Part shown: positions 1,190-28,496 of the stretch, piece after piece
Numbering within the stretch: position 1 is the first letter of the stretch
Layout: every line of letters starts with the position of its first letter
Origin: a bacterium
GTDB lineage: Bacteria; BMS3Abin14
Assembly: GCA_029210545.1 (NCBI GenBank)
Contig: JARGFV010000025.1
Span: 1-29,193 of the forward strand
Length of the DNA: 29,193 bases
Reading direction: 5' to 3'
The notes under the pieces: generated by a model
The model's input: only the letters and a program-made list of their open reading frames with translations
Database searches by the model: none
What the model was told of the DNA's origin: nothing
Translations under genes and position numbers: made by a program

Positions 1190-1224
1190 GAAATCAGTAA
1201 TCAGTAATCAGAAATCAGTAGAAG
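1190..1224 (+). repeat. Heptad array, unit close to GTAATCA
   Basis: Five consecutive 7-bp units (GAAATCA, GTAATCA, GTAATCA, GAAATCA, GTAGAAG) directly follow mogA. This is a short tandem array with drifting units. Confidence 0.8.
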
Positions 1225-1263
1225 GCCCTGTAAATTGCGGACTATTCAGAAGCTCTGCGGTTT

Positions 1264-1298
1264 CACTGGCTACTGGCTACTGGCTACTGGATACTCAC
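1264..1298 (+). repeat. Heptad array, unit TACTGGC, upstream of tmk
   Basis: Five 7-bp units (CACTGGC, TACTGGC twice, TACTGGA, TACTCAC) end 17 bases before the tmk ATG. The same unit class recurs at 15916, 16631, 21681 and 27218, each time near a gene boundary. Confidence 0.85.
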
Positions 1299-1315
1299 CG
1301 CGGGGAAACCGCGTA

Positions 1316-1963
1316 ATGCGCGGAATATTTATCACATTCGAGGGCATCGAGGGCTCGGGAAAGACGACCCTCATGGAGCTCGTGGCCCGGTCCCTGGGCC
1401 GGAACGGCAGGAACTGCGTTCTGACCCGGGAGCCTGGCGGTACGCCGTTGGGCTTATCCCTGCGGCGTGTCCTTCTCGACCCGTCAGCCGCTCAGATCTC
1501 ATCCACAGCCGAGCTCATGCTGTTCGCTGCCGACCGTGCCCAGCACGTTGCCGAAGTCATCCGTCCAGCTCTCGACCACGACAGTATCGTCCTGTGCGAC
1601 CGTTTCTCGGACGCAACTGTCGCCTACCAGGGTTATGGCAGGGGGCTCCCCCTGGAGGTTATCGCGTCGGTGGACAGCCAGGCCCGGGGCGAAACGGCAC
1701 CTGACCTGACGGTCCTCCTTGACCTCACTGTGGGAGAGGGGCTCGGGCGGGCCAGGTCCCGTAACGAGGGCTCATGCGGTCCCTCCGAATCCAGGATCGA
1801 CGAGGAGGAAACGGCGTTTCACCAGAGGGTCCGGGACGGTTATCTCGATCTGGCCAGGGAAGAACCGGACCGGTTCCTTGTGCTGGACGCCACCCTGGAG
1901 CCGGGGAACCTGGCCGAAATGGTGACCGACGAATTGGCGAGGAGGTTTCCCCGTGCGTTTTGA
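1316..1963 (+). CDS. tmk: Thymidylate kinase
   Basis: A 215-residue dTMP kinase that makes dTDP for DNA synthesis. The P-loop FEGIEGSGKTT is at residues 8–18. TREPGGTPLG and the LCDRFSDATVAYQGYGRG segment (DR(F/Y) motif) follow in family order, and length is typical. The frame opens earlier at 1235, but that extension is encoded by the TACTGGC heptad array, and the protein family begins at MRGIFITFEG, so 1316 is the start. A small hairpin (CGCGG/CCGCG) lies between array and start, and the ribosome site is weak. The 3' end overlaps holB by 11 bases. Confidence 0.95.
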   Translation: MRGIFITFEGIEGSGKTTLMELVARSLGRNGRNCVLTREPGGTPLGLSLRRVLLDPSAAQISSTAELMLFAADRAQHVAEVIRPALDHDSIVLCDRFSDATVAYQGYGRGLPLEVIASVDSQARGETAPDLTVLLDLTVGEGLGRARSRNEGSCGPSESRIDEEETAFHQRVRDGYLDLAREEPDRFLVLDATLEPGNLAEMVTDELARRFPRAF

Positions 1964-2951
1964 ACTCCTCAAGGCCCAGTGCGGGGCAGTGACCATTCTT
2001 CAAAGGAGCCTGGAAAGAGGACGTGTGCCCACCGCGTACCTGTTCACAGGACCTCCCGGATGCGGTCGTCTGACAGCAGCCGTGGCCCTCGCTGCCAGTC
2101 TTAACTGCGAGGCCGGCCCCATCGCCTGCGGCGCCTGCGCGTCGTGCCGGCTTTACGCTGCCGGAAACCATCCTGATCTTCATATCATCGTCCCTGAAAA
2201 GGGAAAGCGCTGGATCGTCATCGAGCAGGTAAGGGAAGAGATCCTCGCCAAGGCCTACCTGAAACCGATGATCGGCGGCACCTCCACATTTATCGTGGAC
2301 GACGCCAATACCATGAACGCCAACGCGTCCAACGCCTTTTTGAAAACCCTGGAGGAGCCGCCCGAGACTTCACATTTTGTCCTCATCGCCCCGGATCGGG
2401 ATTCGGTACTGCCCACCATTTCCTCAAGGTGTCAGACCCTCGTCTTTAACCCCCTGCCGCGGAAGCTCCTCGAGGAGATCCTCGTCGGCCAGGGGATCGA
2501 CCATGTTGACGCGGCCCTTCTGGCAGCCATGGCCAAGGGGAGTGTTGAACGGGCCTTGCACTATCACGCCAGCGGCGCTCTGGAAAGCCTGGCCGAGGAG
2601 TTTGGACCGCTGTCATCCCTTCACGATTTCGGGGCGGGTCAGCTTCTCGACCTTTCCCAGCGCTGGGGCAAGAACCGCAAAGACGCCATGGGAGTCCTCG
2701 AGTTCATGTCGCAGTGGTACAGGGACATGATGATCCTGTCCGAAGGGGCTCCGGAAGAGCAGGTCATCCACATGGCCCACCTCGACCGCTTGAAGGAGGG
2801 GGCCGACCGTCTCGGGAGCGGCGCCCTCGCCGAGGTCCTCGAATCGGTGGAGGACGCCAGGCAGGCGCTGGACGCCAATACAAACGTACAGTTAACCCTC
2901 GACACACTGCTTTTGAAGGTGCGCCGCCGCGCGGCACCGACGCCAGCCTAA
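1953..2951 (+). CDS. holB: DNA polymerase III delta' subunit
   Basis: A 332-residue clamp-loader subunit of the AAA+ family. The P-loop region at residues 32–40 is TGPPGCGRL; the usual lysine is arginine, as expected for delta', which does not need to hydrolyse ATP. A zinc-binding cysteine set (C52, C59, C62, C65 in CEAGPIACGACASC) follows. The sensor/arginine-finger region SSRCQTL is present near residue 158. The start is GTG with GAGGAGG upstream inside tmk. It is coupled to tmk and followed after 17 bases by ricT, a classic order in deltaproteobacteria and Firmicutes. Confidence 0.92.
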   Translation: MRFELLKAQCGAVTILQRSLERGRVPTAYLFTGPPGCGRLTAAVALAASLNCEAGPIACGACASCRLYAAGNHPDLHIIVPEKGKRWIVIEQVREEILAKAYLKPMIGGTSTFIVDDANTMNANASNAFLKTLEEPPETSHFVLIAPDRDSVLPTISSRCQTLVFNPLPRKLLEEILVGQGIDHVDAALLAAMAKGSVERALHYHASGALESLAEEFGPLSSLHDFGAGQLLDLSQRWGKNRKDAMGVLEFMSQWYRDMMILSEGAPEEQVIHMAHLDRLKEGADRLGSGALAEVLESVEDARQALDANTNVQLTLDTLLLKVRRRAAPTPA

Positions 2952-2968
2952 CCCAAGAGAGAACATAA

Positions 2969-4075
2969 ATGGAAAAATATGACGATAACAGTGATTTGAC
3001 TCAAAAACCGCCGGAGAGCGATCAGCCCGAACCGGAGGTTACGTCTCCCGGGGATTCCGACCCGGGGCTCGACCGGAGCGAGGATCTCCAGACCGAGGCC
3101 CCCCAGGCCGGGGATTTCCAGGCCCCCGACCCTGTTCCGGAAATCCCGTCGGAATTATCAGACCCGGATACGCCAGACCCCGGGATCCAGGACATGGACG
3201 CTGATGAAGGAACGCAGGAGGCCGATGCCGATCCGCACGCGGACCTGGAAGCCGACCCGTCGGATTTTCCTGCTGGCATCCGCACCGTCCTTGTTGGGAT
3301 CCGGGGGCAGAACCGTACCGCCCATTTCAACGCCGGGGAGCACACCTTGAATCTCGGCGACGAAGTGGTGGTCCAGACCGAACATGGGAAAAATATCGGG
3401 GTTGTCATGGAGCCCCCGGTCACCCTCGAATACCGCGGATGCAGGAACCTGAAGATCCTTCGCAAGGCCAACCCCGAAGAGGTCGCCAGGGATGTAGAGA
3501 ACAGGGAACTGGAGAAAAAGGCTTTGGAGTTCTGCACCAGGACTGTCGAGGACTGGGAGATCCCCATGCGCCTCGTGCAGGTCGAGTTTCTCCTGGACCG
3601 CTCCAAGGCGATCTTCTTTTTCACGGCTGAAAAAAGAGTGGATTTCCGCGAACTGGTCAGGATCCTGGCCCGGGAGTTTTCCACTCGCATCGAGATGCGC
3701 CAGATCGGGATCCGGGACGAGGCCCGCCTCCTGGGCGGCATCGGTCCGTGCGGCATGGCTTTTTGCTGCAGCACTTTTCTCAAGGAGTTCGCTCCCATCT
3801 CGGTGAAAATGGCCAAGGAGCAGAACGTGATATTGAACCCCAACAAAATATCCGGCGGATGCGGCCGTCTTCTGTGCTGTCTCAACTACGAGTATGACAT
3901 GTACAAGGAAGCTTCCAGGGGTGTTCCCAAGATCGGCAAGAAGGTGAACCTGCCCGAGGGGACCGGGAAAGTCCGTTCGGTGGACATCTTCGCGCGGACC
4001 GTCACCATCGACCTGCCGGAAGAGAAAAAGAACATCGTGATGGATATCGACGAACTGCGGGAGAAACTCAAATGA
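2969..4075 (+). CDS. ricT: PSP1-domain protein (RicT/YaaT family) with acidic N-terminal tail
   Basis: A 368-residue protein. Residues 1 to about 105 are an Asp/Glu/Pro-rich, probably disordered tail. From there the PSP1 domain runs to the end. Paired cysteine motifs typical of RicT are present: C261, C266, C267 (CGMAFCC) and C298, C303, C304 (CGRLLCC). In Bacillus, RicT with RicA and RicF carries Fe-S clusters and promotes RNase Y mRNA processing; in this organism the role is inferred. The gene lies between holB and metG and its stop overlaps the metG start (ATGA). The acidic tail is the unusual part and may bind a basic partner. Confidence 0.88.
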   Translation: MEKYDDNSDLTQKPPESDQPEPEVTSPGDSDPGLDRSEDLQTEAPQAGDFQAPDPVPEIPSELSDPDTPDPGIQDMDADEGTQEADADPHADLEADPSDFPAGIRTVLVGIRGQNRTAHFNAGEHTLNLGDEVVVQTEHGKNIGVVMEPPVTLEYRGCRNLKILRKANPEEVARDVENRELEKKALEFCTRTVEDWEIPMRLVQVEFLLDRSKAIFFFTAEKRVDFRELVRILAREFSTRIEMRQIGIRDEARLLGGIGPCGMAFCCSTFLKEFAPISVKMAKEQNVILNPNKISGGCGRLLCCLNYEYDMYKEASRGVPKIGKKVNLPEGTGKVRSVDIFARTVTIDLPEEKKNIVMDIDELREKLK

Positions 4076-6009
4076 GCGACAAGACTTTCTACGTGACCAC
4101 ACCCATCTATTACGTCAACGATGTCCCCCATATCGGGCACGTTTACACCACCGTGGCGGCTGACGTCATTTCCCGCTACATGAGATCGGCGGGACGCGAG
4201 GTCATGTTCCTGACGGGCACCGACGAACACGGGCAGAAGGTGGAGCAGGCGGCGAAGGAACGCGGGAAAAAGCCCCAGGAGCACTGCGACGAGATGGTGG
4301 TGAGGTTCAAGGATCTCTGGAGGCGTTATAGCATCTCCAACGATGATTTTATCCGGACTACCGAGGAGCGCCACACGCTGGTTGTTCAGCATTTCCTTCA
4401 GAAGCTCTACGACAGCGGCGATATCTACAAAAGTTCTTACTCCGGCTGGTACTGCGTCCCTGACGAACGGTTCTGGACCGAGAAAGACCTTTCCGAGGGC
4501 AACTGCCCGGATTGCGGCCGGCCGGTCGTGCAGATCGAGGAGAGCAACTACTTCTTTAAAATGAGCAAGTACCAGGAGTGGCTGATCAAGCACATCGAGG
4601 ACAACGAGAACTTCATCCGGCCGGAGTCGCGGCGGAACGAAATGCTGGGGTTCCTCAGGAAACCGCTGGAGGACCTTTGCGTCAGCCGCCCCAGGAGCAG
4701 GCTGCGTTGGGGTATCGAGATCCCCTTCGATAAAGAGTACGTGACCTATGTGTGGTTCGATGCCCTGATCAACTACGTCACCTCCCCGGGATATACTTTA
4801 GACAACGTAAGGTTCGCCGAATTCTGGGAGAACTGTACCCACCTCATCGGAAAGGACATCCTCACTACCCACACCATCTACTGGCCCACCATGCTCCGGG
4901 GCGAGGGGCTTGCGCCCCCGAAGCGGGTGTTCGCCCACGGCTGGTGGACCGTGGAGGGGAAAAAGATGTCCAAGTCCGTCGGGAACGTGGTGGAACCGAA
5001 CCTGCTCCTGGACAAGTACGGCGCCGATGCCATCCGCTACTTTCTCCTGCGTGAAGTGCCCTTCGGCCTGGATGGCGATTTTTCCCACTCCGCACTCATC
5101 GGCCGGATCAACTCGGACCTCGCCAACGACCTCGGCAACCTGCTTCAACGCTCCCTGGGCATGCTGGAAAAATACCGTGACGGCGTCATCCCTCCCGTAC
5201 CGGGTACCGGGGAGACCGGTGACCTCACAAAAGGCCTCATGGATTCAGCCGTGAAGACCGTGGGCGAGCTTGCCGAACAGATGGAGAGCCTGGCCTTCGA
5301 CAGGGCCTTGAAAACCATCTGGGAGTTTATCAGCGCCGCCAACAAGTACATCGATTCCGCCGCCCCGTGGACCCTGCACAAGGAGCATAAAGACACCCTG
5401 CTCGACTCGGTGATGTACTCCCTCTTCGAGGCCATCCGGCAGGTGGCCGTCATGATCACCCCCTTCATGCCCGAGACGGGCCAGAAAATGTTCAGGCAGA
5501 TCGGGATCGCCCAGAAGAAGGAGCTGCAGACCCTTGCCTCCCTTGCATCGTGGGGAGCCCTCCCCGGGGGCACAAGGACCTTCCGGGGACCTGCTCTTTT
5601 CCCGCGAATCGAAGAGATCTCCGAAGAGGAGAAGAGGGGAAAAGGAGAAAAGGGGAAAGAACCTAAAGCCAGGGAGAAGAGTGTGGAGAACGTCATCACT
5701 TTCGATGATTTCGCGAAGATCGAGCTTCTCACCGGCAAGGTCCTTGAGGCGGAAAAGGTTCCCAAGTCCAAGAAGCTGGTGAAGATCATCGTGGACACGG
5801 GGGAGAAACGCCAGATCGTGGCGGGTATCGCCGAATATTATGAGCCCGAGGAGCTGGTGGGCCGGACAATAGCCGTCGTTGGCAACCTGGCTCCCGCAAA
5901 GCTCATGGGCGTGGAATCCAACGGGATGCTCCTGGCCGCCCACGACGAGAACGGCCTCGCCCTGGTAACCTTTGATAAAGAGGTGAAGGCGGGAGTGCGT
6001 ATTAAATGA
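4072..6009 (+). CDS. metG: Methionyl-tRNA synthetase
   Basis: A 645-residue class I aminoacyl-tRNA synthetase charging tRNA-Met. HIGH is at residues 20–23 and KMSKS at 298–302. The connective-peptide zinc knuckle is CVPDERF...CPDC, so the second ligand position of the Thermus-type CxxC is Asp here. The anticodon-binding helical domain follows. A charged linker occupies residues 518–530, encoded by five 8-bp units at 5623–5662. The last ~105 residues are the EMAP/Trbp111-type tRNA-binding dimerisation domain (VLEAEKVPKSKKLV, GNLAPAKLMG). It overlaps ricT by 4 bases and is the last gene before a repeat-filled spacer. Confidence 0.97.
   Translation: MSDKTFYVTTPIYYVNDVPHIGHVYTTVAADVISRYMRSAGREVMFLTGTDEHGQKVEQAAKERGKKPQEHCDEMVVRFKDLWRRYSISNDDFIRTTEERHTLVVQHFLQKLYDSGDIYKSSYSGWYCVPDERFWTEKDLSEGNCPDCGRPVVQIEESNYFFKMSKYQEWLIKHIEDNENFIRPESRRNEMLGFLRKPLEDLCVSRPRSRLRWGIEIPFDKEYVTYVWFDALINYVTSPGYTLDNVRFAEFWENCTHLIGKDILTTHTIYWPTMLRGEGLAPPKRVFAHGWWTVEGKKMSKSVGNVVEPNLLLDKYGADAIRYFLLREVPFGLDGDFSHSALIGRINSDLANDLGNLLQRSLGMLEKYRDGVIPPVPGTGETGDLTKGLMDSAVKTVGELAEQMESLAFDRALKTIWEFISAANKYIDSAAPWTLHKEHKDTLLDSVMYSLFEAIRQVAVMITPFMPETGQKMFRQIGIAQKKELQTLASLASWGALPGGTRTFRGPALFPRIEEISEEEKRGKGEKGKEPKAREKSVENVITFDDFAKIELLTGKVLEAEKVPKSKKLVKIIVDTGEKRQIVAGIAEYYEPEELVGRTIAVVGNLAPAKLMGVESNGMLLAAHDENGLALVTFDKEVKAGVRIK
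5623..5662 (+). repeat. 8-bp tandem array inside metG
   Basis: Five 8-bp units (GAAGAGGA, GAAGAGGG, GAAAAGGA, GAAAAGGG, GAAAGAAC) encode the Lys/Glu/Gly-rich linker before the tRNA-binding domain. The first three units are nearly identical to the intergenic array at 7601–7632. Confidence 0.85.
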
Positions 6010-6010
6010 C

Positions 6011-6098
6011 GTACGTGAGTAGATGCGTATGTCCGTAATCGCGTCAATTCAAGCGGTCATTCGCCCTCACGCTCCACGCACGAACGCACGCACGGGAA
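6011..6098 (+). repeat. Degenerate 8-bp array after metG
   Basis: The spacer can be cut into eleven successive 8-mers: GTACGTGA, GTAGATGC, GTATGTCC, GTAATCGC, GTCAATTC, then drifting to CACGCACG, AACGCACG, CACGGGAA. The first four units share the start GTA, the fifth begins GTC, and the late units share ACGCACG. It starts two bases after the metG stop codon. Confidence 0.65.
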
Positions 6099-6187
6099 TT
6101 TCCATGCCAGCCCCGGTGGGAGTTTTCCGGCGATACTAAAAGCTTTGAGCAATAGTTTGATAGCGATTCGAAAGGACTCCTCACCTG

Positions 6188-7585: not shown

Positions 7586-7600
7586 GTAGAGTCGAATCCG

Positions 7601-7636
7601 GAAGAGGAGAAGAGGAGAAAAGGAGAAGAGGAAAGG
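7601..7636 (+). repeat. 8-bp GA array after tatD
   Basis: Units GAAGAGGA, GAAGAGGA, GAAAAGGA, GAAGAGGA, then AAGG. The unit is the same as the one within metG. Confidence 0.85.
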
Positions 7637-7695
7637 CAGCTCACCTCCTCACAGGCAACAACCACTTGTCCGCCGTTTTTATCATCATGGAAGTC

Positions 7696-7845
7696 TTGAT
7701 GGACTCGCAAAAAGTCCATCAACGCGCCCCGCGCGGGGCGCCCGGATCAATGACTCGCACCGTAAGTCATTGATCTGTAAGGAAAGGGAAAACGACGCCT
7801 TTCCCTTTCTCCTTTTCCCCTTTTCACCTCTTTGTGAAATCACTC
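7696..7845 (+). repeat. Composite palindrome element plus pyrimidine 8-mers
   Basis: Four hairpins stand in series: a 10-bp stem 7696–7705/7713–7722, an 18-bp perfect palindrome 7724–7741, an 11-bp perfect stem 7745–7755/7765–7775, and a 10-bp stem 7782–7791/7800–7809. They correspond in order to hairpins of the 1–154 mosaic. Pyrimidine 8-mers (TTTCTCCT, TTTCCCCT, TTTCACCT, CTTTGTGA) follow at 7806–7837. No coding signal is seen in this spacer. Confidence 0.85.
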
Positions 7846-7862
7846 CCCGGAGGTCCTTCTAG

Positions 7863-7957
7863 CCCGCATTATTCATGATGGTGATGAGATGTCAGCTAAC
7901 TGTGTGGCAAATATGGATAAATGGGAATGGCACGATAAACATCATGAATTATGCGGG
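7863..7957. mobile_element. 95-bp MITE-like element with 18-bp terminal inverted repeats
   Basis: The ends 7863–7880 and 7940–7957 are inverted repeats matching at 17 of 18 positions, beginning CCCGCAT and enclosing a 59-bp AT-richer core without an open frame. Size and structure fit a miniature inverted-repeat element derived from a DNA transposon. No clear target-site duplication is visible in the flanks (CTAG against GTTG), so it could also be a long stem-loop RNA. The parent transposon is not in this window. Confidence 0.5.
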
Positions 7958-7983
7958 GTTGCCCGGACATAGTCACGAGAGGA

Positions 7984-8162
7984 GTTGTTCGTTCCGGCAA
8001 GGCGACTGTGGAGTGAGCGCGGAGGCATGCTTTAGTATTCCGCACAAGCGAACGACACAGCAACGCAGCCAGAACGGAAAAGAACCTCGTGAATAGTCCG
8101 GGCTAGCAGCGTGTCATGGTTTTCCGACACGCTGCCAGGGAGGGATCTCACAGCTCCCTCCC
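7984..8162 (+). other. Structured gene-free stretch upstream of tctC
   Basis: Three stem-loops follow one another: an 8-bp stem with one G·U (7984–7991/8049–8056) enclosing 57 bases, a perfect 10-bp stem (8106–8115/8126–8135, loop ATGGTTTTCC), and an 8-bp G/C-rich stem (8138–8145/8155–8162). No reading frame looks real. It could be a small RNA, an attenuator or a terminator pair before the tct operon. I recognise no known riboswitch. From 8163 to 8370 I see only AT-richer leader or promoter DNA with no clear box. Confidence 0.35.
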
Positions 8163-9357: not shown

Positions 9358-9376
9358 CAGAATTGGCAGGAGGACA

Positions 9377-15264: not shown

Positions 15265-15299
15265 TTCCAGATCCCAGATCAGATCCAAGATCCAGGAAA
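15265..15299 (+). repeat. Heptad array upstream of the kinase gene
   Basis: Units TTCCAGA, TCCCAGA, TCAGATC, CAAGATC, CAGGAAA lie in the spacer between kinase start and the GGQ gene end. Confidence 0.6.
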
Positions 15300-15311: not shown

Positions 15312-15325
15312 GTGCACCGGTGCAC
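15312..15325. promoter_or_regulatory. 14-bp perfect palindrome, possible operator
   Basis: GTGCACCGGTGCAC is a perfect inverted repeat without a loop, about 100 bases upstream of the kinase start. Loop-free palindromes of this size often bind a dimeric regulator. Nothing links it to a known factor. Confidence 0.3.
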
Positions 15326-15403
15326 CATTGCACAAGATTCTCAGACCGAGTCTGTGTCTGAGACTCGCTTTTCCCTTTTCCCTGCCCCGAGCCTGCCGAA
15401 GTG

Positions 15404-15761: not shown

Positions 15762-15806
15762 GGGGGGATTTAAACACAGAGGAGGGAAAGGGTCTAGAAT
15801 AACCAG

Positions 15807-15838
15807 ACGCGGAGACGCGGCGATACGGAGACGCGGAG
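15807..15838 (+). repeat. 8-bp ACGCGGAG array
   Basis: Four units: ACGCGGAG, ACGCGGCG, ATACGGAG, ACGCGGAG. A complementary-strand array of the same class lies at 16590–16629, so the two flank the rhodanese gene in opposite orientation. Confidence 0.85.
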
Positions 15839-15847
15839 AAAAACCAC

Positions 15848-16508: not shown

Positions 16509-16524
16509 GGGGGAAGGAACGCCC

Positions 16525-16672
16525 GAAATCCGAGATTGGTGATTCGTGATTCGTGATTCGAAATATCCGAATCATAAGTCATGTCCCTTTCTCCGCGTCA
16601 CCGTGTCTCCGTGTCCCAGCGTCCCCTTTTCTGACTACTGGCTTCTGGCTACTGACTTCCGATTCTGCTATA
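16525..16672 (+). repeat. Joined 7-, 8- and 7-bp arrays upstream of the CCG protein gene
   Basis: From 16525 to 16587 the unit is 7 bp (GAAATCC, GAGATTG, GTGATTC three times, GAAATAT, CCGAATC, ATAAGTC, ATGTCCC). From 16590 to 16629 it is 8 bp (TCTCCGCG, TCACCGTG, TCTCCGTG, TCCCAGCG, TCCCCTTT). From 16631 it is 7 bp again (CTGACTA, CTGGCTT, CTGGCTA, CTGACTT, CCGATTC, TGCTATA), ending in the -10 box of the next gene. Confidence 0.8.
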
Positions 16673-16682: not shown

Positions 16683-17873
16683 ATGTCCGACACGGTCACC
16701 GATTTCATAACCGAATGCTCTTCCTGCACCCAGTGCGGTACGGTGTGCCCGTTCCTCGAAAAGCACGGCTCTCCCAAGGACATCATCGCCAACAGGCCCC
16801 AGCTGGCCTTCCTGTGCACCAACTGCACCGGGTGTGACAAGAGATGCCCCCTGGAGCTGTCGCCCTCCGAAGCCCTGTTCGCCACCAAGCAGAAGCTCAT
16901 CGCCGAGCAGAGAGTCCCGGAGAAAGCTGCAAAGGCCATCAGGGGCGCGGCCTCCTTCGCCGAGCGCAGTCACAAGGCGCCCTTCGTGCGCTACGACAGC
17001 AAGAAGGTCGGCTTCTGGCCGGGCTGTTCCCTGGCAGGCACCAGCCCGGAGGCGACAGAAGCGACCCGGCAGCTGCTGGAGTCGCTGCTGGGAGAGGAGG
17101 TGGGGCTCATCCTGGACTGCTGCTACGACCCCCTGTACCAGATGGGAGACACCGGGCCCGTGACCGAAGCGTGCGGACGGATCGTCGAAAGGCTCGCCAA
17201 ATCCGGCATCGAGAGGGTCATCGTCGGGTGCGTCAACTGCCGGAAGGTGTTCGCCCGGTACATGGACCAGGTGGACGTCAGCCACGTCATCGAGGTTCTG
17301 CCACCGGACATCCTCAAAGAACTGCCCGAGGACGAAGACCTTTATCTCCATCACCCGTGTCCCGTCTATCACGTGGAAGGGATCCGGGAGAAGATAACCG
17401 CAGTGCTGGGCCATTCCATGATGATGGTGGACTCGCAAGGAGTCCATCATCCAGGGTCTTCGCAAGGCGAAGATCCTGGGGTAGGGGTGGAACCAGACGG
17501 ATTTACTCCGTCTGGCGGGGGATCACGCCGTTGGCGTGACCGCTCGACTCAAAACAGCTCGAAGAGCCAATTTGAAAGGTTATCCATATCGCAGGCGGTG
17601 GATGAACAGAAGATCCCGGCCTGCTGCGGTTACGGCGGCAGCCTTAACACGCAGGACGAAGAACTGTCCATGAAGTTCACCAAGCGGGTGACTATGGCAG
17701 CTTATGGGGCCACCATTGTCACCTCGTGCATGGGGTGCAACAACATGTTCAACAGGAAGGGAACCCCCACCTACCATATCCTGGAGCTGATCACTGGTGT
17801 TAAGCCCAAGAAGAAGGCAGTGGGCTCGGCAAGGAAGTGGGCTAACAGGCTTTTACTTGCCAAAGGCAAGTAA
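16683..17873 (+). CDS. Fe-S CCG-domain protein (HdrD/GlcF-like) with an in-frame repeat insertion
   Basis: A 396-residue soluble electron-transfer protein. N-terminal motifs C12, C15, C18, C22 and C45, C48, C51, C55 bind two [4Fe-4S] clusters. Two CCG domains follow, as in heterodisulfide reductase HdrD/HdrB and glycolate oxidase GlcF. Domain 1 is C115-X30-C146C147-X35-C183xxC186. Domain 2 is C226-X87-C314C315-X33-C349xxC352, so about 50 residues too long; residues ~248–291 are encoded by four tandem hairpins of the genomic repeat family. All cluster ligands are kept, so the protein may still work. The partner and substrate are unknown. The stop codon lies in a 12-bp perfect hairpin. It is divergent from the rhodanese gene. 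Confidence 0.85.
   Translation: MSDTVTDFITECSSCTQCGTVCPFLEKHGSPKDIIANRPQLAFLCTNCTGCDKRCPLELSPSEALFATKQKLIAEQRVPEKAAKAIRGAASFAERSHKAPFVRYDSKKVGFWPGCSLAGTSPEATEATRQLLESLLGEEVGLILDCCYDPLYQMGDTGPVTEACGRIVERLAKSGIERVIVGCVNCRKVFARYMDQVDVSHVIEVLPPDILKELPEDEDLYLHHPCPVYHVEGIREKITAVLGHSMMMVDSQGVHHPGSSQGEDPGVGVEPDGFTPSGGGSRRWRDRSTQNSSKSQFERLSISQAVDEQKIPACCGYGGSLNTQDEELSMKFTKRVTMAAYGATIVTSCMGCNNMFNRKGTPTYHILELITGVKPKKKAVGSARKWANRLLLAKGK
17424..17539 (+). repeat. Palindromic repeat inserted in frame in a coding sequence
   Basis: Four hairpins stand head to tail within the gene: 10 bp with one G·U (17424–17433/17441–17450), 13 bp with one G·U (17451–17463/17467–17479), 9 bp (17493–17501/17507–17515) and 7 bp (17523–17529/17533–17539). 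The first matches the hairpin at 7696–7722 and the last matches 15862–15880. Confidence 0.9.
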
Positions 17874-17876: not shown

Positions 17877-17880
17877 AAGT

Positions 17881-18084
17881 GTCTAGAGTCTGGTGTCTGG
17901 AAAAAGCAAAACGTCAGGATCAGGAAAAACTCGACCCTATTAGCAAATGCTAATAGTGGCCGATTGGAGTTTCAGGTTTCAAATTCCAGGTTCCAGGTTT
18001 TTCCCCGATACTCCGATACCTGGATACGTGTGTAGGTATGTAGGTATGAACGTAAATACGTAGACACTTTGATACGTAGATACC
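17881..18084 (+). repeat. 7-bp arrays followed by a ten-unit 8-bp array
   Basis: Heptads GTCTAGA, GTCTGGT, GTCTGGA (17881–17901) and TTTCAGG, TTTCAAA, TTCCAGG, TTCCAGG (17970–17997) come first. Then ten 8-mers run from 18005 to 18084: CCGATACT, CCGATACC, TGGATACG, TGTGTAGG, TATGTAGG, TATGAACG, TAAATACG, TAGACACT, TTGATACG, TAGATACC. The spacer holds no gene. Confidence 0.85.
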
Positions 18085-19926: not shown

Positions 19927-19937
19927 ATTATCCCCCT

Positions 19938-19983
19938 TCAAATTATCAAAATTCCATATTCCATATTCCATATTCATCTTACT
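19938..19983 (-). repeat. Heptad array, unit ATATTCC
   Basis: AAATTCC, ATATTCC, ATATTCC, ATATTCA, TCTTACT and neighbours lie directly upstream of the DUF2892 ribosome site. Confidence 0.75.
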
Positions 19984-20119: not shown

Positions 20120-20755
20120 GTCGAGCTTGGGGATGCTATTCATCGTTTTGAGAATCCGGTATCCAGAATCCAGCAGCTCGTAGAGAACCTGAAGCCTTAA
20201 CGCAGAGGCGGCCTTTCCCAGGCCTACCCACCCAAGAACGCGGAGAAGAACAAGGACCGGGTTAAACCAGATAGCTGCTCAGGTTTTCCTTGGCGAACTC
20301 CGCGTGCTTGAGTGAGTCCTGCTAAAGCAGGATGAACGGGCGGTTAATACCAATGGCCTTTTAGCGCCACAGCGCCGGGATTTACCGCCAAGCACGCCAG
20401 GAACGCCAAGAAAAGCAACAAAAAGGATACTGGGTACAGGCGCTGTCACGTGACCCAACTTCTTAAATATTTACCACCAGAGGGCCGCAGGGGAAATCGA
20501 CTCAAAGCATAAGAGCAAAGACAGAAAGGATCTGCGTTAACGTTTTAGATCTGGATTCCCACCTTCGCGGGAATGATGTTGATAAAAAGGTTTCCCCCCG
20601 GTTAACAGATCTTCTCTGTGCCCCTCCGTGTCCTTCTCTGTGGTGGATCAGCTCTCGGAGCCATTATGGCACACGCCTGAGTTCCCCCCCCTGGCTTTCG
20701 CCTTCCTTTGCGAAACTTCGCGTACTTTGCGTTAAATCCGCTTCTGGTCTTCCCC
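20120..20755. other. Gene-free stretch with 7- and 9-bp arrays and hairpins
   Basis: No convincing gene was found. Seen: heptads at 20152–20186 (GAATCCG, GTATCCA, GAATCCA, GCAGCTC, GTAGAGA); a TCCTGC/GCAGGA hairpin at 20317–20332; 9-bp units at 20386–20430 (CGCCAAGCA, CGCCAGGAA, CGCCAAGAA, AAGCAACAA, AAAGGATAC); and 9-bp units at 20695–20748 (CTTTCGCCT, TCCTTTGCG, AAACTTCGC, GTACTTTGC, GTTAAATCC, GCTTCTGGT). Confidence 0.65.
20555..20574. repeat. ATTCCC-N8-GGGAAT repeat
   Basis: A 20-bp inverted repeat of exactly the dRS3 layout known from Neisseria genomes (ATTCCC, 8 bases, GGGAAT). Similar GGATTCCC...GGGAATGA sequences occur in many bacterial spacers. Confidence 0.6.
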
Positions 20756-21626: not shown

Positions 21627-21728
21627 TTTTGTATTTTCTTCGCGTCCCTCTGCGCACTCTGCGTTCAGATGGTTCTTTTCCGGCTACTGGCTACTGGATA
21701 GTGGCTCCTTGCTTCTGCTACTATCTCT
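21627..21728 (+). repeat. 9-bp array joined to a 7-bp array upstream of the PNPOx gene
   Basis: Six 9-mers (TTTTGTATT, TTCTTCGCG, TCCCTCTGC, GCACTCTGC, GTTCAGATG, GTTCTTTTC; 21627–21680) pass directly into 7-mers (CGGCTAC, TGGCTAC, TGGATAG, TGGCTCC, TTGCTTC, TGCTACT; from 21681). The last units form the -10 box. Confidence 0.75.
21716..21724 (+). promoter_or_regulatory. Extended -10 box placed for a leaderless transcript
   Basis: TGCTACTAT is an extended -10 with six bases before ATG at 21731, so transcription would begin at the A of ATG. TGGATA 18 bases upstream could act as a -35. No Shine-Dalgarno sequence is present. Confidence 0.5.
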
Positions 21729-21730
21729 CC

Positions 21731-22186: not shown

Positions 22187-22230
22187 GAGTCTGGTGTCTA
22201 GTTCCAGCTAGACCCTGGACCCTGGACGCG
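22182..22230 (+). repeat. Seven-unit heptad array
   Basis: GCTAGGA, GTCTGGT, GTCTAGT, TCCAGCT, AGACCCT, GGACCCT, GGACGCG. The first unit contains the stop codon of the PNPOx gene. Confidence 0.75.
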
Positions 22231-22293
22231 GTGACCCGCCTTCGCTGAAGCTACGGCGTGGCAAGCACAGAGAATTAAAGCTCTTGCTCCCCC

Positions 22294-23211: not shown

Positions 23212-23258
23212 TCCGAGTTATCCGTTCCTCTGAACACGGTTTTAGGCACTCCTTGTTG

Positions 23259-23342
23259 AAAAGGGGAAAAGGAGAGTGCGCTTTCTCCCATTTTCTCCTC
23301 TTCCCCTCTTCTCCTCTTCGCGATGAAGCTACGCTTCATCGC
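23259..23342 (-). repeat. 8-bp arrays abutting a stop-codon hairpin
   Basis: Pyrimidine 8-mers CTTTCTCC, CATTTTCT, CCTCTTCC, CCTCTTCT, CCTCTTCG fill 23281–23320 and meet a 10-bp perfect stem GCGATGAAGC/GCTTCATCGC (23320–23329/23333–23342). The TAG stop codon of the DUF4389 gene is at the tip of the hairpin. Purine units precede at 23259–23276. Confidence 0.8.
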
Positions 23343-23613: not shown

Positions 23614-23929
23614 GGCGAGCCCCCTTTTCCATGCTGTCATTCGATATGCGCAGATTTATGAATTGAGAGTACCCCCTATCAGCGTTGCTTTCAAGGGAGG
23701 AGAGCTTTGATCTGACGGCTATCCGCCAACAGCGAAAAGCCGGATGGGAACGAGCCTGTCATCGCGAGCTGAATATTGATGGACTCGCAATGACAAACGT
23801 ATTTATCCCCTTTCCACCTGCTATCCTCCCTCCTCACTCCTCCCTGCCTTTTCCCCTTGCCCCTCATCCACCCGTGGTTAAACTGTCTACCAATACAGTC
23901 TGATATTAAGCCGAAAGGATGGTAGCCTC
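23614..23929. other. Gene-free spacer with a 12-bp hairpin and heptads
   Basis: A stem TGTCATCGCGAG/CTCGCAATGACA (23757–23768/23784–23795, one G·U) is a sibling of the element at 15848. Pyrimidine heptads (CTATCCT, CCCTCCT, CACTCCT, CCCTGCC, TTTTCCC, CTTGCCC, CTCATCC) run from 23821 to 23869. TGATATTAA at 23901–23909 could be the msrB extended -10 box. Confidence 0.65.
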
Positions 23930-24499
23930 ATGATCAAAAGACGCGACTTCCTGTTTTTGATGAGCAAGGGAGCGGCAATACTTCTGGCAACCGGTCCCCT
24001 GGGACTGGTTATCAGGCGTGCCCACGCTGAAACGGATGGGGGCATGATCAGGGTCTATCTGGCCAGGGAAGGCGGGTATGTGAACATGGAGAAGGTTGTC
24101 AAGAGTAAAGACGAGTGGAAAACCTCCCTTACAAAGGAGCAATACAAGGTCCTCAGGGAAAAAGGCACCGAACGGGCCTTCGCGGGAACCCTTCACGACA
24201 ACAAGAAACCCGGCATATACAGGTGTGCGGGATGCGGGCTCGATCTTTTTTCCTCCGAGCACAAGTTCGATTCAGGTACCGGCTGGCCGAGCTTCTGGCA
24301 GCCCATCGCCAAAGAGAACGTCGCCACCGAGGAGGACAACAGTTTCTTTACGCGCCGCACTGAAGTCCACTGCCACCGATGCGGCGGTCACCAGGGCCAC
24401 ATTTTCGAGGATGGCCCCCAACCAACGGGGCTTCGCTACTGCATCAACTCGGTGAGCCTGGATTTCGTCGGCGAAGATGGGAAGGTCATAAAGGGCTGA
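23930..24499 (+). CDS. msrB: Exported peptide-methionine (R)-S-oxide reductase
   Basis: A 189-residue MsrB with a twin-arginine-like signal (KRRDFLF, then hydrophobic [15 protein letters not shown], ending AHA) in the first 33 residues. The MsrB domain shows zinc ligands CAGC and [23 protein letters not shown] and catalytic C171 in RYCINSVSL. It reduces methionine-R-sulfoxide in proteins, here outside the cytoplasm, so it should need an exported electron donor; no MsrA or DsbD-like partner is adjacent. AAGGA lies 11 bases before the ATG. The TGA stop codon is inside an 8-bp hairpin. Confidence 0.93.
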
Positions 24500-24515
24500 C
24501 CGGGTATCCGGTCAG
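24496..24515 (+). terminator. 8-bp perfect hairpin containing the msrB stop codon
   Basis: Stem CTGACCGG/CCGGTCAG with loop GTAT. The TGA at 24497–24499 is in the left arm. There is no T-tract. Confidence 0.6.
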
Positions 24516-24518
24516 GCG

Positions 24519-24602
24519 CGAAGTACAAAGTACAAAGATCGAAGATAAGATCTCGCTTCGCACATCGCGCTTTGCGCTTCGTTCTGATTGTTCCAATTGA
24601 CA
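24519..24602 (+). repeat. Twelve-unit heptad array upstream of the phospholipase D gene
   Basis: CGAAGTA, CAAAGTA, CAAAGAT, CGAAGAT, AAGATCT, CGCTTCG, CACATCG, CGCTTTG, CGCTTCG, TTCTGAT, TGTTCCA, ATTGACA. The last unit supplies TTGACA, a consensus -35 box, 30 bases before the ATG. Confidence 0.75.
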
Positions 24603-24632
24603 GAATCGCCCCGCTCTGGTGAAACTGTGATC

Positions 24633-26204
24633 ATGAAGCTGCCGAAACTCACCCGGAAAAAGATCTTCATTGTCACGGCCGCGGCGTTAACCGTCGCGGT
24701 CGTCGTCCTGCTCGTGCCTCCTCTTCTTCATACGGCGGTTCCCCTTCCTCCGGGGACTCGCATTTCGATGGAACCTGTGCCCGCCGATCCGGAAGCGATA
24801 CGCCTTCTCATCGACGATACGGCGTGGGATGAGAGCATGGAGCAAAGGGTCATCGACCAGGAGATCTTCGACCAGGTCCTGGCCATGATCGACAGGGCCG
24901 ACCAGTTCGTTTACGTGGACCTTTTCCTCTGGAACCCATGGCAGGGCAGCATACCCGAGGAACACCGGCAGCTTTCTACCGAACTGGCCAAGGCCCTCAT
25001 CAGGAAAAAGCGGGCTGCCAGGGGCATCGATATCATTGTCCTCACCGACCCCATCAACCGGATCTACGGCGGACACGAGCCTGAGTTTTTCAAGGATATG
25101 GCAAAGGCGGGGATCCCGATCGTGTTCACTGACCTGGACCGGCTCCCCGACTCCAACCTCGTATACTCCCCGTACTGGCGGCAACTGGAAAAAGCCCTGA
25201 ACAGCCGTGCTCTTGGCGGCTGGGCCGGACGGCCACGTCTAAGCAACCCGTTCCTGCGCGGTGGTGCGGACATCTCGACTTTCCAGTTCGGACTTATGCT
25301 CCTTTTCAAGGCTAACCATCGAAAGGTGGTCATTACGGGGTCTACCGATCACGGTCTCGAAATGCTCGTGGGAAGCCTGAACCCCGCCGACGGGAGTTCC
25401 GCCCACTCAAACATGGCCCTCGCTGTGAAGGGCAGATCGGCTTACGAGGCTCTCAGGTCAGAGCTCGACATCCTGCGCTGGAGCACGGAAAGGAAAGCCA
25501 ACGTCATCGTTGGCGCCACCAACTCCGCCAGGTTCAAGGCCGACTCCATGGAAAAGAAGGCTCTCCGGCTCCTTGAGAGGGACACGACGTACTCCGGCCC
25601 GGCTACCTTGCAGTTCCTTACGGAAGGGGCCATCGCTGACGGGATCGTCGACCTCCTCGGGGAGGCGGGCGACAAAAGCGAGATCCGAATCGCAATGTTC
25701 TACCTCTCCCAGAGAGCCGTGGTGGACGCCATCGCGGCAGCCGCAAAACGGGGCGCCACCGTGAAGCTTGTCCTGGACGCCAACCGGGATGCCTTCGGAA
25801 TGAAAAAGGTGGGGATCCCAAACCGTCCCGTAGCGGCGCGCCTGATGAAACTGGCCCGGGATCACGACATCCAGGTCAGGTGGGCCGACACCCACGGGGA
25901 ACAGTTCCACACCAAGGCCATGTCCATCGTGCATCAGAACCCGGGGGACACTGCTTTCATCACCGGGTCGGCCAACTGGACAAGGCGCAACATCGATGAC
26001 CTCAACCTCGAAGCGAACCTGGTTGTCAGGAACGCCCCTGGAATAACGGAGGCCTTTAACTCGTACTTCGACACCATCTGGTCCAACAGCGACGGCCTGA
26101 ACCACACCCTCCCTTACCAGGCCTGGGAAGAGAAGGGGTTGAAACTGATGCTCAAAGAGGGACTGTACAGGATCCAGGAGAGGTTCGGAGCGGGAACATT
26201 TTAA
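24633..26204 (+). CDS. Phospholipase D-like phosphodiesterase, membrane-anchored
   Basis: A 523-residue protein with an N-terminal membrane helix (residues ~8–33) and two PLD repeats. Repeat 1 has H229xK231 followed by VVITGS and, later, GSLNPADG; repeat 2 has H426xK428 and GSANWTRRN. In both repeats the Asp expected in HxK(x4)D is not at its place (Gly and Val instead), while His and Lys are kept. Such members can still form the phosphohistidine intermediate. It would cleave or transfer phosphodiester groups at the membrane, possibly like cardiolipin synthases. The ribosome site is weak. The 'distant' repeat spacing (about 195 residues) is typical. Confidence 0.82.
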   Translation: MKLPKLTRKKIFIVTAAALTVAVVVLLVPPLLHTAVPLPPGTRISMEPVPADPEAIRLLIDDTAWDESMEQRVIDQEIFDQVLAMIDRADQFVYVDLFLWNPWQGSIPEEHRQLSTELAKALIRKKRAARGIDIIVLTDPINRIYGGHEPEFFKDMAKAGIPIVFTDLDRLPDSNLVYSPYWRQLEKALNSRALGGWAGRPRLSNPFLRGGADISTFQFGLMLLFKANHRKVVITGSTDHGLEMLVGSLNPADGSSAHSNMALAVKGRSAYEALRSELDILRWSTERKANVIVGATNSARFKADSMEKKALRLLERDTTYSGPATLQFLTEGAIADGIVDLLGEAGDKSEIRIAMFYLSQRAVVDAIAAAAKRGATVKLVLDANRDAFGMKKVGIPNRPVAARLMKLARDHDIQVRWADTHGEQFHTKAMSIVHQNPGDTAFITGSANWTRRNIDDLNLEANLVVRNAPGITEAFNSYFDTIWSNSDGLNHTLPYQAWEEKGLKLMLKEGLYRIQERFGAGTF

Positions 26205-26209
26205 AAAGC

Positions 26210-26237
26210 AGGAGCCAGGAGTCAGGAGCCAGGAAAA
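26210..26237 (+). repeat. Heptad array, unit AGGAGCC
   Basis: AGGAGCC, AGGAGTC, AGGAGCC, AGGAAAA begin six bases after the phospholipase D stop codon. Confidence 0.8.
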
Positions 26238-26318
26238 CCCCTTGGTATCAGCCTCCCCGAAAGCAGAGGATCAGCTCAATGGCCGGCGGTAAAGGACAAG
26301 ATTCGGGAATTGTGACTC

Positions 26319-27158
26319 ATGTTTAAATTTACCAAAAACCCGAAACGCAATACTCGACAGGCGAAGCGGCAACGCGCTCCGCGCGTCGGGTTGGCCCTGG
26401 GCAGCGGGGGCGCGAAGGGGTTGTCCCATATCGCCTTCCTGGAAGCCCTGGACGAGATGGGGATCCAGCCTTCCATCATTGCCGGGACCTCCATCGGGGC
26501 CGCCATCGGGGCCTTTTACGCATCGGGGCTGACGGGAAGGCGCATCGAAAGGATCTTCGACGGGATGGGGATCCGCAAGATGGGGAGCATGGCCGATCCG
26601 GCCGGGCTCAGCAACTCCGGTCTCCTGAAGGGCAAAAAAGTGGAGGCATTCCTTACAAACCACCTTCCCGCAAAGACCTTCGAGGATCTGGAGATCCCCT
26701 TGAAGATCGTCGCCACCGATTTCTGGAACCGCGTGGAGGAAATCTTCGACTCCGGAGACCTGGTCACCGCCATCCGGGCCAGCATTTCCATTCCCGTGGT
26801 CCTCGAACCGGTGGAACTCGGGGGACGCGTGTTCACCGACGGAGGCGCCGTCAACCCCCTGCCCTACGACATCATCCGGGACGAGTGCGACATCCTCATC
26901 GCCATCGACGTTTCCGGCGAGAAGGTGCCTGACGAACACGATCCCACACCCTCCATGCTGGAGAACGTTTTTTCCACCTTCCAGACCATGCAGGCCTCTA
27001 TCGTACGCTGCAAGATGAGCACATCAAAACCCGACATCCTCGTCCGGCCCGATCTCATTAACATCCAGCTCATGGACTTCCACCGAAAGGACGAGATTCT
27101 CGACGGCGTGAAGGAAGATGTGGAAAGATTCAGACAAGAGCTGGAGGCGAAACTATAA
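26319..27158 (+). CDS. Patatin-like phospholipase (RssA/NTE family)
   Basis: A 279-residue serine lipase-like protein. The oxyanion loop GSGGAKGLSH is at residues 28–37, the nucleophile S58 in GTSIGA and catalytic D174 in TDGGAVNPLP. A basic N-terminal tail (KNPKRNTRQAKRQR) precedes the domain and could bind membranes. The family hydrolyses phospholipids or lysophospholipids. It follows the phospholipase D-like gene by about 115 bases, and the two may both act on membrane lipids, by inference. No strong ribosome site is seen; the start is the first ATG, and the next ATG falls within the domain. Confidence 0.9.
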   Translation: MFKFTKNPKRNTRQAKRQRAPRVGLALGSGGAKGLSHIAFLEALDEMGIQPSIIAGTSIGAAIGAFYASGLTGRRIERIFDGMGIRKMGSMADPAGLSNSGLLKGKKVEAFLTNHLPAKTFEDLEIPLKIVATDFWNRVEEIFDSGDLVTAIRASISIPVVLEPVELGGRVFTDGGAVNPLPYDIIRDECDILIAIDVSGEKVPDEHDPTPSMLENVFSTFQTMQASIVRCKMSTSKPDILVRPDLINIQLMDFHRKDEILDGVKEDVERFRQELEAKL

Positions 27159-27217
27159 TGTTATTCAGATGTCAGTAATAAATCCAGGGAAAAGTCTGGA
27201 AAATGATCTTCGATTTT

Positions 27218-27259
27218 CTCTGGCTACTGGCTACTGACTACTGGCTACTGGAGAATCCC
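27218..27259 (+). repeat. Six-unit heptad array ending at a start codon
   Basis: CTCTGGC, TACTGGC, TACTGAC, TACTGGC, TACTGGA, GAATCCC run without a gap into the ATG at 27260. The last TACTGGA unit plus the next G provides GGAG as ribosome site. Confidence 0.9.
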
Positions 27260-27718
27260 ATGACCCGACCCATGTCCGAGATCCGGAAACGAATGCTGGC
27301 AGGCGTTGAAGCCGGAGACTGTTTCACAGTGCGAAGGACCTTTATCGAGGACGACATGCACCTTTTCACCGGTGTTTCCCACGACCACAACCCGATCCAC
27401 TTCAATGAAGGGTACGCCGAGGGGAAGGGGTTTACAGGCCTCATTTGCCACGGGCTTCACGTGGGCAGCCTGGTCACAGAGATCGGCGGTGAACTGGGAA
27501 TGCTGGCCTCGGGGATGAACTTCCATTTCCGGCGCCCGGTCTACTGCGGCGACACCATCACCTGCACCCTGACTATCGACGAGATGGACGAAAGGAACCG
27601 GGTCAAGTGCACGGCCCTGTTCACCAACCAGCATGGGGAAGATGTCATTGAAGGGCAGCTGTTCGGGATTCTTCCCAGCGAGGAGGAGAAAAAACTCCTC
27701 ACTGAAAAATGCGTCTAG
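27260..27718 (+). CDS. MaoC-like (R)-specific enoyl-CoA hydratase
   Basis: A 152-residue single hot-dog domain protein. The hydratase motif with the catalytic Asp/His is in FTGVSHDHNPIHFNEGYA (residues ~38–55), followed by FTGLICHGLHVGSLVTEIGG. Such enzymes hydrate trans-2-enoyl-CoA to (R)-3-hydroxyacyl-CoA. The start at 27260 is set by GGAG in the adjoining heptad array; a longer frame from 27203 would translate the array. The next gene, YedK-like, begins 24 bases after its stop codon; the pair may be co-transcribed without a functional link. Confidence 0.9.
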   Translation: MTRPMSEIRKRMLAGVEAGDCFTVRRTFIEDDMHLFTGVSHDHNPIHFNEGYAEGKGFTGLICHGLHVGSLVTEIGGELGMLASGMNFHFRRPVYCGDTITCTLTIDEMDERNRVKCTALFTNQHGEDVIEGQLFGILPSEEEKKLLTEKCV

Positions 27719-27741
27719 ACACTGAAACCGGAGGTTTCACT

Positions 27742-28410
27742 GTGTGCGGCCGATTCGTTCAATTCAGTTTGTTCCCGATCCTCCAGAAGGAGTTCGGGTT
27801 GAAATTCGGGGAGGACGCCTCCATATCTCCCTCATACAATATCACCCCCACCCAGACAGTTCCCGTGGTTGTCAACGAGGGCGGCAACCGGCTGATCTCC
27901 TGCCGGTGGGGCCTTATCCTCCCATGGGCGAAGGACATGGCCATCGGCAGCCGTATGATCAACGCCCGGGCCGAAACCCTGGCGGAAAAGCCAAGCTTCA
28001 AGGGACTGTTCCGGAAGCACCGCTGCCTGGTAGTGGCCGACGGTTTCTACGAGTGGAAAAAGACGGAAACGGGAAAGGTCCCGGTCTACATACACATGAA
28101 GGGTGGATCGCCCATGGGCTTTGCGGGCCTTTATTCCGACTTGACCTCACCGGATGGAGAGCTCATACGCACCTGCACCATCGTGACCACCGGGCCCAAT
28201 ACACTTCTCGCCCCCATCCACGACCGCATGCCGGCCATCATTGAGCCTGGAAAAAGGAAAACGTGGCTCGACCCGGACCAGCACGATCCGGATGCTCTGG
28301 CACCTCTCCTCGGCCCCTACCCTGCTTCGGAAATGGAAGCGTGGGAGGTATCCAGGGCCGTGAACTCGCCGGCAAACGATGAGCCGGATAATATACGGCC
28401 TCTGGGGTAG
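27742..28410 (+). CDS. yedK: SRAP-domain abasic-site protein (YedK/HMCES family)
   Basis: A 222-residue SOS response-associated peptidase-like protein. In this family Met is removed and Cys2 forms a thiazolidine cross-link with abasic sites in single-stranded DNA. GTG at 27742 is followed directly by TGC (CGRF), with GGAGG 8 bases upstream, so this is the start; a longer frame from 27709 would bury the cysteine. Other conserved parts are YNITPTQTVPVV, MINARAETLAEKPSF, RCLVVADGFYEWKK (Glu) and APIHDRMPAII (His). It shields abasic sites from breakage during replication. Confidence 0.95.
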   Translation: MCGRFVQFSLFPILQKEFGLKFGEDASISPSYNITPTQTVPVVVNEGGNRLISCRWGLILPWAKDMAIGSRMINARAETLAEKPSFKGLFRKHRCLVVADGFYEWKKTETGKVPVYIHMKGGSPMGFAGLYSDLTSPDGELIRTCTIVTTGPNTLLAPIHDRMPAIIEPGKRKTWLDPDQHDPDALAPLLGPYPASEMEAWEVSRAVNSPANDEPDNIRPLG

Positions 28411-28496
28411 GGAAAGTGGAAAGTGGAAGGAAACCTTCAACCTCGCACGTCTGGTTTCCCTATTCCCTACTTAGTACTTAGCGCTGGTTAAAGAAG
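28411..28496. repeat. About twelve heptads between yedK and hpt
   Basis: GGAAAGT, GGAAAGT, GGAAGGA, AACCTTC, AACCTCG, CACGTCT, GGTTTCC, then in a shifted phase ATTCCCT, ACTTAGT, ACTTAGC, GCTGGTT, AAAGAAG. The whole spacer between the convergent genes is filled. Confidence 0.7.

Follow-up and report, generated by a model that had tools for sequence, protein, structure and literature searches.

Several bacterial groups carry short tandem repeats between their genes, and comparable arrays, with units of 7, 8, or 9 bp, lie in the intergenic spacers of the contig analyzed here, which comes from an uncultured bacterium (JARGFV010000025.1, assembly GCA_029210545.1, lineage BMS3Abin14), whose full 29,193 nucleotides (nt) are called the window. 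Geobacter metallireducens has the tandem classes GTTGCTYN (x4), TCTCCGTS[Y] (x3), and MTYCTGA (x5) in one genome, and its "global regulator binding sites" of classes 1 to 4, with 16 to 48 sites per consensus family, are proposed to bind IHF/HU (PMC2700814). As in the window, these are 7- and 8-mer tandems found mostly in opposite-strand pairs at variable distance, and both TCTCCGTG and CTG-type heptamers occur here too. Geobacter, however, has few fixed consensus families, compared with 78 7-mer and 39 8-mer units here, together with 9-mers and a lack of conservation between relatives. The initial annotation of the window considered mixed periods to be undescribed, but paired 8-mer and 7-mer arrays were already known from G. 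metallireducens (Aklujkar et al. 2009, PMC2700814).

The GGGNATC and GGGGA(C/T)T repeats of Xanthomonas and Nostoc have their G-rich strand on the noncoding strand upstream of starts and on the coding strand downstream of stops (Rehm et al. 2015, PMC4692102); they form 70 to 75 inverted pairs, lie on average 28 nt from an open reading frame, contain about four units, and vary between related species (PMC4692102). The arrays described here share their polarity, inverted pairing, distance from genes, unit number, and between-species variability, but comprise many mostly quadruplex-incapable families with three periods in place of a single G-quadruplex-capable one. The TAACTGA repeats of Beggiatoaceae, Cyanobacteria, and Bacteroidetes are likewise intergenic heptamers, in 2 to 6 copies and mostly just upstream of starts (MacGregor 2015, PMC4679880). 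Their unit is one base off the commonest unit here (TTACTGA), but it is fixed, and related heptamers are rarely repeated, whereas the commonest unit here makes up 11 of 176 arrays. For the short tandemly repeated repetitive (STRR) sequences of cyanobacteria, Mrazek et al. (2007), as cited in PMC4679880 and PMC4692102, reported seven as the commonest long period of simple sequence repeats and proposed polymerase slippage. To the extent that those citations describe them, period seven is dominant in both systems, and the arrays here differ in being degenerate, inverted-paired, purine-polar, and free to take steps of 8 and 9; moreover, the nearest named relatives of the present host are unclassified or Proteobacteria-labelled metagenome-assembled genomes. 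STRR sequences, named in the initial annotation as the nearest parallel, are one parallel and not the sole one, since the Xanthomonas/Nostoc repeats share the orientation rule. The tandem repeats of Borgs evolve fast and independently in spacers and disordered protein parts (PMC9879509), as do the spacer and protein-linker arrays here, although Borg units are perfect and, in the examples given, longer, in contrast to the short, degenerate units of the window.

The arrays share the architecture of these families but are not a member of any, because they have no fixed consensus and mostly lack G-quadruplex capacity. They are not categorically new, given the inverted 7- and 8-mer pairs of G. metallireducens and the heptamer orientation rule of Xanthomonas and Nostoc; what is new is the presence of three periods in one lineage, the independence from unit sequence and G-quadruplexes, and the complete turnover of units. 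We place about even confidence in their being noncoding products of DNA-synthesis errors, tolerated only in unconstrained sequence, and not regulatory sites.

Arrays with periods of 7, 8, and 9 bp

The window is one complete contig (C25) of a 2.72-Mb, 241-contig genome. Across its 19 spacers (4.5 kb), base matching exceeded that in 300 dinucleotide shuffles at lag 7 (z = 9.0), lag 14 (z = 6.6), lag 8 (z = 3.9), and lag 9 (z = 2.3), and, at lag 7, runs of exact matches with a length of 9 or more numbered 45, as opposed to 0.0 in the shuffles. Coding DNA of the window was periodic only at the expected multiples of three. A larger sample of the genome, covering 1.18 of 2.72 Mb (43%) and 669 spacers delimited with a simple home-made hexamer gene caller, gave z values of 54.6, 18.7, and 7.8 at lags 7, 8, and 9 and contained 177, 62, and 13 arrays of the corresponding periods (0.05 to 0.1 expected for each). 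The same spacers held 0, 1, 5, 1, and 2 arrays at lags 5, 6, 10, 11, and 12. Altogether, 197 of the 669 spacers, or about one third of intergenic gaps, bear an array. Within arrays, adjacent units differ by 1.21 mismatches, compared with 1.70 when unit order is shuffled (P = 4e-11, 78 arrays), as local duplication predicts.

This comparison with shuffled spacers, set beforehand, upholds the fixed periods of the initial annotation in the window and the genome alike. At the level of individual loci, 24 of its 27 arrays were significant (P < 0.01) at the period assigned to them, and those at 6011 (P = 0.19), 19620 (P = 0.018), and 20695 (P = 0.017) were not. Two of the significant ones need qualification: the 7-bp period at 15265 (P = 0.003) is surpassed by a 12-bp period, and the 9-bp period at 21627 (P = 0.008) involves just two copies. 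Arrays of different period had also been described as directly joined, but they are neighbors separated by gaps, of 29 and 5 bp in the 7-8-7 set (16523-16560, 16590-16625, and 16631-16657) and of 18 bp in the 9-7 set (21648-21663 and 21682-21704). The arrays of the window are as follows.

1192-1218, minus strand: 7-bp array AATCAGT, forming the left arm in the spacer that follows a mog/moaB-type gene (P = 0.001; Tandem Repeats Finder [TRF] score 51)
1265-1295, plus strand: 7-bp array ACTGGCT, right arm of the spacer between the mog/moaB-type and thymidylate kinase-like genes, just before the latter (P = 0.001; TRF score 55)
5623-5658, plus strand: 8-bp array GAAAAGGA, located in a linker region of the metG coding sequence
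7601-7632, plus strand: 8-bp array GAAGAGGA, purine arm after a TatD/radical-SAM-like gene (P = 0.001)
7802-7832, plus strand: 8-bp array CCTTTTCM, pyrimidine arm, an inverted match to 7601-7632
15281-15297, plus strand: weak 7-bp array AGATCCA, better fitted by a 12-bp period (P = 0.003)
15805-15839, minus strand: 8-bp array AGACGCGG (minus strand TCTCCGCG; P = 0.001)
16523-16560, plus strand: 7-bp array GATTCGT (P = 0.001)
16590-16625, plus strand: 8-bp array TCTCCGTG (P = 0.001)
16631-16657, plus strand: 7-bp array TTCTGAC/TACTGGC, directly before the following gene (P = 0.001)
17878-17900, plus strand: 7-bp array GTGTCTR, 5 bp past a stop codon (P = 0.006)
17969-17999, plus strand: 7-bp array GTTTCAG/GTTCCAG (P = 0.001)
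18005-18062, plus strand: 8-bp array CCGATACT, drifting to GTAGGTAT (P = 0.001)
19951-19975, plus strand: 7-bp array ATTCCAT, located at, or running into, the start of a small gene on the minus strand (P = 0.001)
20154-20173, plus strand: 7-bp array ATCCRGA (P = 0.002)
20386-20423, minus strand: 9-bp array CGCCAAGAA (P = 0.001)
21648-21663, plus strand: 9-bp array CTCTGCGCA, two copies (P = 0.008)
21682-21704, plus strand: 7-bp array GGCTACT before a pyridoxamine-oxidase-like gene (P = 0.001)
22208-22227, plus strand: 7-bp array GACCCTG (P = 0.001)
23293-23319, plus strand: 8-bp pyrimidine array TTCTCCTC, with purine arm GAAAAGGGGAAAAGGAG ahead of it (P = 0.001)
23824-23845, plus strand: 7-bp array TCCTCMC (P = 0.004)
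24521-24546, plus strand: 7-bp array AAGTACA (P = 0.001)
26209-26234, minus strand: 7-bp array CAGGAGC, 5 bp past a phospholipase-D-like gene (P = 0.001)
27220-27251, plus strand: 7-bp array CTGGCTA, just ahead of the start of a MaoC-like gene (27260) (P = 0.001)
28411-28428, plus strand: 7-bp array GGAAAGT, directly after the stop of an SRAP-like gene (P = 0.001)

At 23258-23320, a purine run, a pyrimidine run, and a second pyrimidine run (GAAAAGGGGAAAAGGAGAG, CTTTCTCCC, and TTCCCCTCTTCTCC) follow one another in an order that resembles an intrastrand-triplex motif (compare PMC4666352).

Polarity and inverted pairing

The initial annotation had overlooked three properties of the arrays: their purine polarity, their inverted pairing, and a shared vocabulary. 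Arrays mostly consist of 2 to 5 degenerate copies, cover 6.4% of spacer bases, and lie at a median distance of 27.5 nt from a gene end. Their density is similar in co-directional, convergent, and divergent spacers, and on this ground a promoter- or terminator-specific role was rejected. On the plus strand, arrays at the left edge of a spacer tend to be rich in purines and those at the right edge rich in pyrimidines (178 of 256, P = 4e-10; 64 of 78 for period 8), independent of the direction of the flanking genes. Adjacent arrays of the same period run purine-then-pyrimidine in 29 cases and pyrimidine-then-purine in 5. The edge asymmetry was not found in array-free spacers, and it recurs in relatives (106 of 155, P = 5e-6). 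A strand rule combined with inverted pairs recalls the GGGNATC repeats of Xanthomonas and Nostoc, for which G-quadruplex or i-motif elements have been proposed; however, only 14 of 350 arrays are quadruplex-capable (three-tier), yet the rule holds across families, and this explanation is scarcely credible here.

Arrays that share a spacer tend to belong to one family, as inverted copies, with 25 of 102 pairs scoring at least 12, compared with 27 of 306 random pairs (P = 7e-4). The loops between inverted same-period arms range from 10 to 519 bp and are mutually unrelated. The clearest inverted pair of the window, 7601-7632 with 7802-7832, has a score of 21, the top of all pairs. Arms match the partner in their own spacer better than they match the arms of the ortholog (11 of 12, P = 0.003). 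Since pairing is kept while sequence changes, the strongest rival explanation is that the arrays act as RNA-level hairpins at transcript ends, in termination, end protection, or attenuation, where only pairing matters and sequence is free. Covariation of arms within species, the proximity of arrays to gene ends, and the folding of individual spacers (z of -3 to -5.6, with -3.5 for the spacer holding the 1192-1218 and 1265-1295 arrays) all agree with it. Against this, array-bearing spacers fold no better than those lacking arrays (mean fold z, -2.22 versus -2.19), divergent spacers carry arrays about equally often, 158 of 242 array spacers have a lone array, arrays occur in coding linkers too, and a search of Rfam gave no match to a known RNA family. 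Hairpin function is therefore unlikely to be what the arrays exist for.

Unit vocabulary and its turnover among relatives

The family comprises genomes G001 to G011, several of which share metG loci with records bin582, bin676, bin47, PFL40, and SZUA-204; they were sampled as 13 to 100 kb each, plus additional pieces of G003 and G011, and protein identities between them derive from few genes. Densities reach 153 to 302 arrays per 100 kb of spacer in G008, G003, G001, G007, and G010 (302 in G008) and 0 to 61 in G009, G002, and G004, the 0 for G009 coming from a small sample. Period 7 is far above periods 8 and 9 in all family genomes compared.

A comparison of orthologous spacers, also set beforehand, shows that unit sequence turns over while the period stays. 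Both species have arrays in 33 pairs of orthologous spacers, and not one unit is identical between them (by chance, 1.5 would be). In the spacer that precedes the thymidylate-kinase-like gene, the 7-bp arrays of five genomes are built from five different units, and two species of one genus, with about 90% mean protein identity, differ at the aligned position, with (ATCTGAA)n in one and (GCCCATA)n in the other. The fixed-step amplifying process envisaged in the initial annotation is well supported, because periods are confined to 7, 8, and 9, adjacent units are alike, and units turn over with the period kept. Persistence of array sites across species was rejected: its odds ratio of 2.5 (P = 0.014) loses significance when only pairs of spacers of 80 bp or longer are compared (P = 0.23) and may reflect a length effect.

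The units themselves come from a limited vocabulary common to the lineage. The 176 period-7 arrays have 78 distinct consensus units, compared with about 142 to 164 in random sets of equal size, the commonest being AATCAGT (TTACTGA rotated); 39 distinct 8-mer units, plus 9-mers, occur in the 1.18 Mb. Units of relatives are identical to words of the window's own genome at nonorthologous places in 11 of 27 cases for G008 (1.5 expected) and 10 of 13 for G007 (1.8 expected). This combination of a limited lineage-wide pool with complete local turnover resembles satellite-library behavior. A universal unit grammar was rejected, since units are more alike than letter-permuted ones, yet weakly so for period 7.

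Arrays also occur in coding sequences, at protein ends and linkers, and 22 of 42 such period-7/8 arrays (runs of N excluded) have units identical to spacer words; part of the N-terminal ones may be start-codon miscalls. At the metG linker occupied by the GAAAAGGA array, relatives have different repeats or gaps (the alignment leaves out comparisons with G003, G002, G001, and G004).

Sites bound by a nucleoid protein or a global regulator, as in the IHF/HU proposal for similar Geobacter pairs (Aklujkar et al. 2009), would fit the opposite-strand pairs with variable spacing and the consensus words, such as TCTCCGTG, that coincide with those of Geobacter. Many unit families with three periods in one genome, the lack of unit conservation between orthologs, and the arrays in coding linkers make this explanation improbable. 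Vocabulary common to nonorthologous places and complete replacement between orthologs would also be expected if array pairs were the ends or bodies of small nonautonomous elements moved by a RAYT-type or other transposase; a dispersed hairpin element with an empty site in a relative and the Y1-transposase family in G000, G001, G003, and G008 point the same way. But inspection of spacers revealed no conserved body beyond the arrays (no systematic comparison of flanks or target duplications was run), and the loops are unrelated. RAYT/Y1 transposases were rejected as the cause, being as common in array-poor as in array-rich genomes and present in most other phyla. A reverse-transcriptase writer was likewise rejected, as RVT_1 is absent from the window's own genome, and from array-rich G001, G007, G008, and G011, and is present in array-free G009. 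Mobile elements are, on balance, a rather unlikely source.

Of the 376 genomes sampled, 54 contain CTGNNTN arrays, with a scattered distribution outside the family, and 17 contain TCTCCGTG-type 8-mers. Four genomes outside the family (G364, G109, G375, and G333) have period-7 and period-8 spacer arrays together, with some words in common; in three of these the polarity is the same, although counts are small, and in G109 it is ambiguous. Density and word sharing are biased in part of these regions because the regions were picked by pattern match. Word sharing across phyla was rejected: 7-mers are not above chance, and the suggestive signal of 8-mers is partly circular, the regions having been chosen by an 8-mer pattern.

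Origin of the arrays

Errors of DNA synthesis could generate such arrays in four steps. First, short seeds from a genome-wide word pool would enter spacers. Second, these seeds very probably grow in place by duplication, through slippage-type synthesis in steps of 7, 8, or 9 nt. Third, fold-back template switching may copy one arm inverted across the spacer, which would yield the purine-rich 5' arm and pyrimidine-rich 3' arm with common units that pairing and polarity display. Fourth, arrays are lost and replaced fast, and position and period are the most that different genera, or congeneric species, still have in common. Unit sequence would be without function, and step length and purine polarity would reflect the synthesis machinery.

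Several points weigh against this account. Pure local slippage does not explain a limited vocabulary common to loci and species, for which reason a seeding or copying step, itself not seen, has to be assumed. None of the candidates checked (RVT_1, Y1 transposase, and MutS loss) was identified as the responsible enzyme, and the occurrence of periods 7 to 9 rather than 5 or 6 is left unexplained. Selection for pairing could be an alternative source of arm matching, and fold-back copying alone predicts neither purine polarity nor the fact that single arrays have it too (69 of 106). Finally, the relatives compared are at closest species and not strains, so single array events are not catchable.

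Mismatch repair is efficient for loops of 1 to 3 bases and declines with length, so that long loops escape (PMC4060949); this escape may set a lower bound on the step, without explaining the missing 5 and 6. Seven matches the contact length of the polymerase in a proposal by Mrazek et al., known here as cited in PMC4679880 and PMC4692102. Loss of mismatch repair was rejected as a requirement, MutS being present in the window's own genome and not found in G003 and G008. The MutS N-terminal domain was not found in these two densest samples and is present in the other family genomes tested; in G011 it is represented only by a contig-edge fragment.

Very doubtfully, an activity other than RVT_1 that extends break or fork ends, with an intrinsic 7- to 9-nt step, might add repeats to 3' ends before rejoining. 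In this reading, the purine-rich 7- to 9-nt repeats of each gene block, running 3'-outward into the spacer, have the geometry of telomere repeats and head-to-head telomere fusions. Such an activity would continually rewrite spacers in this phylum and scattered others.

The cyanobacterial, Xanthomonas, Geobacter, and Beggiatoa repeats, each described separately, appear to be instances of a single phenomenon that keeps step length, inverted pairing, and purine polarity constant but not unit sequence, which weakens explanations by regulator sites and G-quadruplexes. The old question of why seven is the favored long repeat period in bacteria becomes testable, because array density varies widely among several complete genomes from one small lineage. 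The arrays also point to a rapid mutational origin of new sequence in spacers and protein linkers.

Palindromic and mobile-element-like sequences

A modular palindromic element occupies 1-245, 7690-7800, and 29053-29193, that is, both ends of the contig and a place inside it, with stems such as GGAAAGGGAAAA..TTTTCCCTTTCC, GGACTTTTCGC, and GCGCCCC..GGGGCGC. Its 21-bp end (at most 2 mismatches) occurs 112 times in the window's own genome, 66 times in G003, 25 times each in G004 and G007, twice in G008, and 0 times in G001; lying at many contig ends, the element probably breaks the assembly. An 83-bp hairpin insert in G011 (L191:2535-2665) has an empty site in G003 (L185:7486-7533), and such hairpins are therefore gained or lost as units. 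Repeats of 8 bp built on the palindrome GTGCAC (GTGCACCN) lie at 15312-15333 and at L191, L192, and L194, and recur in the window's own genome and in G011 spacers. Within the cysteine-rich (CCG-type) reductase-like gene at 16683-17873, a hairpin-rich in-frame segment (17426-17545) resembles dispersed palindromes inserted into a protein linker. The segment at 7863-8110, bounded by inverted GCCCGCATTATTCATGATG and CATCATGAATTATGCGGG and with a second GCCCGGACTATTCACGAGG-like end, is a possible mobile-element remnant.

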